64,000 bases of DNA. Origin: Haloarcula regularis. GTDB lineage: Archaea; Halobacteriota; Halobacteria; Halobacteriales; Haloarculaceae. Under the pieces are notes generated by a model, which was not told the DNA's origin, did no database searches, and worked only from the letters and a program-made list of their open reading frames with translations. Positions 14,248 to 61,336 of the stretch are shown in pieces. The translations under genes were made by a program, and so were the position numbers. The stretch is from assembly GCF_029338315.1 (NCBI RefSeq), contig NZ_CP119794.1, positions 1,922,001 to 1,986,000 of the forward strand, written 5' to 3'. How positions within the stretch are numbered: position 1 is the first letter of the stretch; the number at the start of each line of letters is the position of its first letter.

Positions 14248-14300
14248 TACCCGAGGGTAGGGCTGGATGAACTTGAGGCTAGCGAGAGTCTGAGCGGTAG

Positions 14301-14633
14301 TGTTTAGTGAAGCGGTATTCGGGTTGTAGAGCCAGAAAGCCCCACCCATGCCGGCTGGCCATCCGGCTTCGGGTGGGGCTGAAAGGCAGCGAGGGACCGG
14401 CGGTCCCTCGGGCCGTGCGAACGGGCACGCAGTGCCCGTGAGCAGAGGCCGTGCTATCGGCGAACCCCGACGACGTCACCGAAAGACGCGACGCGTCTTT
14501 CGAGATGCTGAAAATCGCCGCTGGCGATCTTCAGATCACAAGCACCTACCGGAGCGCAGCGAGTCGCGGGAGCCGATAGCACGGGGCTTTCTGGCTGTTC
14601 ACGATCTGAATCCCTTAACTAAACACCGCCGTC
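14301..14633 (+). mobile_element. Hairpin-rich terminal-inverted-repeat element, copy A
   Basis: Non-coding element just upstream of uvrB. Ends are TGTTTAGTGAAG (14301-14312) and the inverted CTTAACTAAACA (14614-14625), followed by CCGCCGTC, which also follows copy C. Inside each end is GCCAGAAAGCCCC in inverted orientation (from 14331; to about 14597). The left arm forms a stem AGCCCCACCC/GGGTGGGGCT (14338-14347 with 14371-14380). Further stems include one with a GAGGGACC/GGTCCCTC core, one of CGGGCAC/GTGCCCG, the perfect 11-base CGAAAGACGCG/CGCGTCTTTCG (14480-14502) and one built on ATCGCC/GGCGAT. There is no open frame. The build resembles a MITE. Confidence 0.75.
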
Positions 14634-14851
14634 TGAGCGGAGCGAAGACTCTCGAACCGGAGCGGCGATCAGCGGGAGCCGTGGAGGCTAGCGAGGCACA
14701 CGAGCGAAGCGAGTGGGCCTCGACATGCGACGCGGGGAGCACCGCGACCCGCGGAGCACCGGGCGACGCGAATGGACCTCGAACTAGCGCAGCGGAGAGT
14801 CTTGCGGCCCACTGAGCGAGAGCTGAAACAAGTGAGAGAGTCCCCGCCGCG
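14634..14851. other. Unassigned sequence beside element A
   Basis: About 220 bases between element A and the small zinc-finger gene. It contains repeated gcgaagcgag-like and gagcggagcgaag-like strings and no supported coding frame. It might be remnant element sequence, but I see no second terminal repeat. Confidence 0.35.
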
Positions 14852-46302: not shown

Positions 46303-46570
46303 GATGGCGGTGTTTAGTTAAGAGATTAAGCTCGTGAACAGCCAGAAAGGGGCGGCTGTCATCGGGCGCGAAGCGCCCGATTGCCCGCGAGACCTTCGGT
46401 CTCGCCCTGGCTGAACTCGGGGGTGGTTCGAAAGACGCGTCGCGTCTTTCGGCGACGTCGTCCGCCGTCGTTCAGCCAGCCGCCCCTTTCAGCCCCACCC
46501 GTAGCCGGATGGTCAGCCGGCCTGGGTGGGGCTTTCCGGCTCTCTGGAACGAGTGCTGCTAAAGTAAACA
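46303..46570 (-). mobile_element. Hairpin-rich terminal-inverted-repeat element, copy B (inverted)
   Basis: Same family as the element at 14301, in reverse orientation. Terminal repeats are TGTTTAGTTAAG (46311-46322) and CTAAAGTAAACA (46559-46570); the first is preceded by GATGGCGG, matching the CCGCC flank of copies A and C. Shared inner parts are gaacagccagaaagg on the left, the CAGCCCCACCC/GGGTGGGGCTTTC stem on the right, and the CGAAAGACGCG/CGCGTCTTTCG stem (46429-46451). The other stems (TCGGGCGC/GCGCCCGA and GCGAGACC/GGTCTCGC) differ from those in copy A. It sits between divergent genes. Confidence 0.75.
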
Positions 46571-46686
46571 CTAGCAGCTGGAGAGCGCCGCCGACCGGCG
46601 ACCTGGCGCATCTCGTCGCCCGGTCTCGTCACACGTTACCGAAAGGGGAACCGATATAATGCCGGCATCTGTTGGACGAGTTACGA

Positions 46687-61171: not shown

Positions 61172-61206
61172 CCGCGAACGCATCATTCGCCGCGTCGTTT
61201 TAACTG

Positions 61207-61290
61207 TGTTTAGTCAAGCGACGGGAGCCGCAAACAGCCAGGGCTTTCTGGCTCTCCGAAGAGAGCATTGCGAAACTAAACACCGCCGTC
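61207..61290 (+). mobile_element. Short terminal-inverted-repeat element, copy C
   Basis: A 76-base version of the element at 14301 and 46311 plus its conserved CCGCCGTC flank. Ends are TGTTTAGTCAAG (61207-61218) and CGAAACTAAACA (61271-61282). Between them are caaacagccag and gggctttctggctctcc, the two inner end motifs brought together, forming a stem AGCCAG/CTGGCT. The hairpin core of copies A and B is absent, as in an internal deletion. Confidence 0.72.
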
Positions 61291-61336
61291 GTTTTCGAAG
61301 CAAGGTTTATGATGGTCGGCGGTGTTCGTTCGAGCA

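Follow-up and report, generated by a model that had tools for sequence, protein, structure and literature searches.

RESULTS

Three related elements in a Haloarcula regularis window

The window, i.e. the whole 64,000-nucleotide stretch of Haloarcula regularis DNA that was analyzed, contains three intergenic elements of a single family, which we call A, B and C. All conform to the end formula GGYRG-TGTTTAST-N22-GCCAGAAAG; at either end of each element, precisely 22 nt lie between TGTTTAST and GCCAGAAAG. An earlier note on this DNA had described a family of three elements with shared terminal inverted repeats (TIRs) and an inner motif, which these common ends and spacing confirm. The limits it gave need refinement. 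The three sites are real, but the true termini (GGYRG...) lie 5 bp beyond TGTTTAGT, and the elements begin at 14,296 (A), 46,306 (B) and 61,202 (C). A supposedly conserved flank of sequence CCGCC(G/A)TC comprises the last 5 bp of the element itself, CCGCC, followed by the first bases of the target-site duplication (TSD) of A (GTCTGAGC) or C (GTCGTTTT). There is therefore no shared flank.

Element A is 335 bp in length (14,296–14,630; GGTAG...CCGCC), with TIR-N22-GCCAGAAAG at both ends, and is flanked by matching (8/8) copies of its TSD at 14,288–14,295 and 14,631–14,638. The left strand of its base stem P1 (GCCAGAAAG, 14,331–14,339 on the + strand) pairs with 14,587–14,595, and this motif recurs at every end matched in the genome. 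Comparison with full cores identifies 14,340–14,379 as the central P3 hairpin (CCCCACCC...GGGTGGGG), fused to P1 after loss of the left arm. This is followed by an inserted pair of hairpins at 14,390–14,439, with stems of 9 and 8 bp and 3-nt loops, found by a hairpin search against dinucleotide shuffles. The surviving arm (14,450–14,583, + strand) lies in what we term the sense direction, is of beta type, and contains a further inserted hairpin pair at 14,480–14,532. It scores 56 bits with our covariance model R1.

On the basis of its sequence and the end pattern, element B (46,306–46,575) is an IS6-type MITE of 270 bp in the opposite orientation, without a recognizable TSD (5/8). Its surviving arm (46,350–46,487) is of alpha type with its sense on the − strand, and the inner X/Y part has been replaced by inserted hairpins at 46,361–46,405 and 46,429–46,451. 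P3 is again fused to P1 (46,492–46,533), and the other arm is gone. Element C (61,202–61,287) is an ends-only MITE of 86 bp, GCCAG-GGCTTTCTGGC, lacking both arms and P3. Its TSD copies at 61,194–61,201 and 61,288–61,295 are identical (8/8). The earlier description of C as keeping only its two ends is thus right but incomplete; it is a product of arm deletion, and A and B each lack one of the two arms.

Perfect hairpins with a stem of at least 7 bp number three in A and three in B, compared with 0.06–0.10 in dinucleotide shuffles (maximum 1 in 200 shuffles). The hairpin richness reported previously is therefore above chance. The stem CGAAAGACGC-GAC-GCGTCTTTCG, given as 11 bases, is indeed perfect, but has 10 bp and a 3-nt loop. 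In an Rfam search of the window the only matches at gathering score were RNase P and tRNA, and no family matched A, B or C.

Element A is upstream of uvrB, at a distance of 48 bp from its start (14,248–14,295), and may affect the promoter of this gene. The element is located within the loop of another intergenic hairpin repeat, CGAGAGTCT-GAGCGGAGCGA-AGACTCTCG (14,280–14,295 and 14,639–14,780), which has many partial matches throughout the genus. The stem of this host repeat differs in the relative G030, where it is GAGGAGCC/GGCTCCTC, with the pairing retained.

The elements are IS6-type MITEs

The end pattern has 51 matches in the 3.6-Mb genome of the organism, compared with 12 for a reversed-pattern control, and most of these pair to give about 18–20 elements. 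We collected 36 distinct elements from the genus Haloarcula and one neighboring genus. A TSD matching at 6 or more of the 8 positions was found for 22 of these 36, compared with 1.2% in shifted controls. The elements range from 86 to 554 bp, within a limit of 600 bp for a short element, and have hairpin cores and no transposase gene. The proposal that they are MITE-like and free of transposase is thus borne out by IS6 TIRs and 8-bp duplications.

Empty sites had been suggested as a further check, and were found. The site of C is uninterrupted in the relative G017 (92% identity), where GTCGTTTT is present once, i.e. an exact empty site. An uninterrupted site for A was found in G030, one of four relatives aligned. 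A scan of genome contigs with the IS6-end pattern gave no match, near relatives probably lying outside that collection.

A search with the 14-bp TIR showed that several congeners have paired ends with a spacing of 692–697 bp. Between these ends is encoded a transposase of 211 aa, which scores above the cutoff for the NCBIfam IS6 model NF033587 (182.3 bits, cutoff 125) and weakly, below the cutoff, for Pfam PF13610 (DDE_Tnp_IS240; 23, cutoff 27). The IS6 copies share 14–18 terminal bp with the MITEs. There are two distinct types of MITE end, L and R, and these match the upstream and downstream ends of the IS separately. One IS6 copy is flanked by an exact duplication of GTTTAAAC. The absent transposase that had been postulated is therefore encoded elsewhere and can be named as IS6 family; the partner is intact in congeners, and the copy found in the H. 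regularis genome is frameshifted.

GG tips, the motif TGTT and duplications of 8 bp are general features of IS6 elements (PMC7986276), and the ends of the A/B/C family agree in all three. GG-tipped TIRs, 8-bp duplications and a partner IS with the same ends together indicate that the elements are IS6-type MITEs and not PATEs. Mobility via the IS6 ends is close to certain, and from the shared ends and the insertion polymorphism we infer that the MITEs are moved in trans by the IS6 transposase.

More than one IS6 lineage is involved. Halonotius roseus has a second, with a transposase 59% identical, the TIR TGTTCAGATAAG and the TSD CTAGTACC. Cores in other genera bear the TGTTCAGATAAG end, also about 22 nt from P1, and one such locus (L169) is a single-armed MITE with this TIR and the TSD GGGCGGGC (8/8). 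Since the same core is found with two types of IS6 end, a single cargo is shared by at least two lineages of IS6.

Two individual cases may be added. The incomplete 2.2-Mb genome G024 has about 131 end matches, mostly of one near-identical subfamily, which is a recent burst. At 2,600,092–2,600,441 of contig C1 of the H. regularis genome (L036) there are two tandem elements, the second placed at the duplication of the first (CATCTAGC).

The core is an inverted dimer found throughout the order

A full core has, in order, the P1 base stem (NNNN-GAAAG-CCCC), an arm in reverse sense, the central hairpin P3 (CCCCTTTCAGTCCCACCC ... GGGTGGGACTGAAAGGGG), an arm in sense, and P1'. It is therefore an inverted dimer, and quasi-palindromic. 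Read in sense, the outer part of the arm comprises a 12-bp stem, a GA(A/C)/GA loop, 2 bp, a C·C mismatch, 3 bp and a C–G pair. The inner part continues with a GA(C)/GA loop, GC, an AA/GCA loop, GC, A·A, CC and a variable tip, usually GNA-capped, followed by the complementary strand. Larger versions have extra paired hairpins at fixed places. On inspection the core is found to face either way with respect to the two IS6 ends. Judged from their sequences, A, B and C would owe their shapes to the deletion of one arm or of both, at the CCCC/GGGG repeats of the arm bases. P3 has a possible likeness to CRISPR repeat ends.

Further copies in relatives, as sought in the earlier note, are widespread. 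Within the order, the 247-bp core (without IS6 ends) has relatives in 281 of the 392 genomes and in 74 of the 95 genera, and numerous named haloarchaea have them on plasmids as well; about 200 genomes from outside the order yielded none. When 247 genomes of the phylum were searched with covariance model R1 of the arm, 38 were matched, every one of them in the order, and no genome from outside it. When 84,980 species genomes were scanned with a strict pattern, all of the matches listed were haloarchaeal records. Phage records contained no copies, nor did IMG/VR when searched with the strict pattern. No haloarchaeal occurrence of the core motif strings, and no description of the core in work on haloarchaeal MITEs and structured RNAs, was found in the literature outside subscription journals and ISfinder.

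Many copies outside Haloarcula have no recognizable IS6 ends. At one orthologous locus of the genus (L114; loci L275–L289), G005 has the core, and in G031 and G028 it is missing precisely, from the P1 base. The junction shares only ACA, without an IS6 signature. This may be a precise loss between short repeats, or a precise gain by a non-IS6 route. Precise presence and absence without the IS6 signature suggests that the core may also be gained or lost by a second route.

The arm is conserved as a fold

In an alignment of 42 arms, 98.6% of cells are paired, and both sides have changed in 18 of the 24 pairs. The covariation score of the arm is 0.677, compared with 0.176 for shuffled alignments and no more than 0.11 in slid controls. 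The earlier view that structure is kept as sequence changes, beyond simple MITE divergence, is well borne out. It had named the lack of further copies and the lack of covariation as grounds against it, and both copies and covariation are found. The tandem G·A loops and the C·C and A·A mismatches are retained in most copies.

The wobble pairs are strongly asymmetric. In the sense direction the ratio G·U:A·C is 18:2 for 61 unique stems gathered without a model. For 138 arms it is 110:27 (p = 4e-13), in a larger set (A3) gathered with a model that itself favors G·U. Copies within a genome are related, so that these counts are not phylogenetically independent. When the opposed arms of palindromic cores were scored separately the ratios were 11:0 and 8:2, so that any bias of the genome strand cancels. 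An excess of G·U over A·C in one direction indicates that selection acts on the arm in the form of a folded single strand. A site in duplex DNA, or symmetric mutation, would give no such asymmetry, and both are thereby disfavored. Selection of the arms as a folded strand is thus well supported by comparison of their sequences.

Single-stranded DNA or RNA

The arm tips are C(GNA)G in 55 of 88 cases and 3 nt in 78 of 88. Loops of 3 nt also close 33 of 38 inserted hairpins, among which there are no GNRA tetraloops. Triloops of the GNA type are known for their particular stability in DNA; in RNA, tetraloops are the prevailing form. The prevalence of triloops therefore tilts the balance toward single-stranded DNA, and the loops of the arms hint at this in preference to RNA. 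G·U counts do not separate the two. Nearest-neighbor folding energies of sense and antisense arms were no different with either RNA or DNA parameters. RNA folding of two sense arms gave z = −4.6 and −6.5.

Single arms on plasmids

Six haloarchaea (Natrinema, Haloprofundus, Halobacterium DL1, Natribaculum, DL31 and Halorientalis; loci L181–L183, L185, L187 and L188) have plasmids with single arms, each accompanied by one half of P3 and one half of P1, about 460–660 bp upstream of a divergent gene for an RPA-like OB-fold protein of 290–300 aa. The intervening 550–650 bp are conserved and hairpin-rich, ending in the single arm copy. The same RPA-like gene adjoins arms at further genome loci. Rfam gave no match on the plasmid loci, and when the ~600 nt of plasmid sequence preceding the gene were folded to a consensus, neither a strand nor a structure stood out clearly. 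The plasmid locus may be the home locus from which the arm came, or one more of its landing places.

DISCUSSION

The carriers are IS6-type MITEs, and the core is an undescribed structured cargo. We favor, with a probability of about 0.6, a joint reading of MITE-like elements mobilized by IS6 that bear an order-wide palindromic cargo, the arm of which is selected as a folded single strand and acts as a putative recognition structure. IS6-family transposases would mobilize A, B and C in trans. The cargo consists of two inverted copies of the conserved arm flanking the central hairpin, and because of the palindrome either DNA strand has a sense arm, whatever the orientation of insertion. The arm would form its recognition structure when a strand is exposed; single-stranded DNA, as exposed in replication or plasmid transfer, would be more probable here than RNA. 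A haloarchaeal protein, either a nuclease or one that binds single strands, might bind the arm, and the IS6 ends would serve to spread it. Comparison of copies suggests that cores vary because entire arms are deleted between the CCCC/GGGG repeats of the arm bases, because copies exchange arms, and because paired hairpins are gained or lost. We would extend this only speculatively, to a proposal that we consider rather doubtful. The arm could be a new class of selected haloarchaeal single-stranded DNA structure recognized by a replication or transfer protein, with a working single-arm copy kept upstream of the plasmid RPA-like gene and the inverted dimer dispersed through chromosomes order-wide by IS6 MITEs.

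The arms could alternatively be RNA domains. The elements' own or read-through transcripts would fold the sense arm for regulation, processing or protein binding, and the palindrome would remove the dependence on orientation. The G·U excess, the strong covariation and the tandem sheared G·A pairs are classic marks of structured RNA, and the RNA folding z-scores fit with this. However, the hairpin loops are nearly all 3 nt, with C(GNA)G in the arms and no GNRA tetraloop in the inserted hairpins; most structured RNAs differ from the arms in loop type, 3-nt loops being atypical. Neither the window elements nor the plasmid loci match an Rfam family. We regard RNA domains as possible, if on the unlikely side. 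The simpler suggestion of structured RNA genes moved as cassettes does not accord with a core that is a DNA palindrome, with one sense arm per strand and triloops more like those of single-stranded DNA.

The other explanations fare worse. Quasi-palindrome correction by template switching is known in bacteria, and in an ordinary MITE template switching between hairpin arms could make compensatory changes as a mutational by-product; the inserted hairpins are often perfect, as this would predict. Yet such arm-to-arm copying should erase the tandem G·A, C·C and A·A mismatches, and is disfavored by their being kept in most copies. It should also be symmetric between strands, contrary to the G·U:A·C ratio, and the unpaired letters conserved across the order call for selection. 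We find this explanation improbable. Scarcely better, and if anything slightly worse, is a double-stranded DNA site, such as one for a dimeric chromatin or regulatory protein, or a cruciform. The whole core is quasi-palindromic and the window copies are intergenic, as might be expected of such a site, but stem sequences vary freely with pairing held, and a wobble asymmetry by strand is unexpected in duplex DNA. The earlier note had also considered a PATE-like element, which would be driven by an IS200/IS605 tyrosine transposase. There are palindromes close to the ends, but the TIRs, the 8-bp duplications, the empty site and the match of the ends to an IS6 IS lead us to reject that origin as extremely improbable.

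Several known systems resemble these elements in part. The IS6-family MITEs of ISfinder, two of which (227 and 336 bp) are mentioned in PMC7986276, are alike in GG-tipped TIRs, TGTT, 8-bp duplications, size and lack of an ORF. Unless those two are themselves members of the family, the core described here differs in being conserved across an order, covarying, palindromic and present on two types of IS6 end. The MITEs and PATEs of Haloquadratum walsbyi are also transposase-free haloarchaeal repeats. In the portion of PMC3119063 that deals with them, the MITEs share only terminal bases with an IS, the PATEs are without TIRs or target duplication, and a covarying structured core is not described. 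QMITE2 of C. burnetii and other hairpin-forming MITEs likewise have TIRs, 7–9-bp repeats and predicted stem-loop transcripts, and order-wide covariation like that of the arm is not among the properties reported in the corresponding portion of PMC10969869.

MITEs are usually regarded as decaying passengers with freely drifting cores. Here two IS6 lineages share one core, the fold of which compensatory changes have preserved throughout an archaeal order, with loop letters conserved. Either transposons spread a functional DNA or RNA structure, or the cargo is selected for a reason not yet described. The elements are abundant in culturable Haloarcula, Halorubrum and Natrinema, so direct testing is feasible.

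The bacterial REP/BIME sequences provide a working analogy only. These are intergenic hairpins with conserved mismatches, associated with RAYT transposases and often occurring as inverted pairs, so that each strand shows one. REPs have neither TIRs nor 8-bp duplications and depend on an HUH nuclease, whereas the A/B/C family has IS6 ends. The pairing of imperfect hairpins in inverted orientation, with both strands represented, is nevertheless found here as well, as minus-then-plus pairs of arms.
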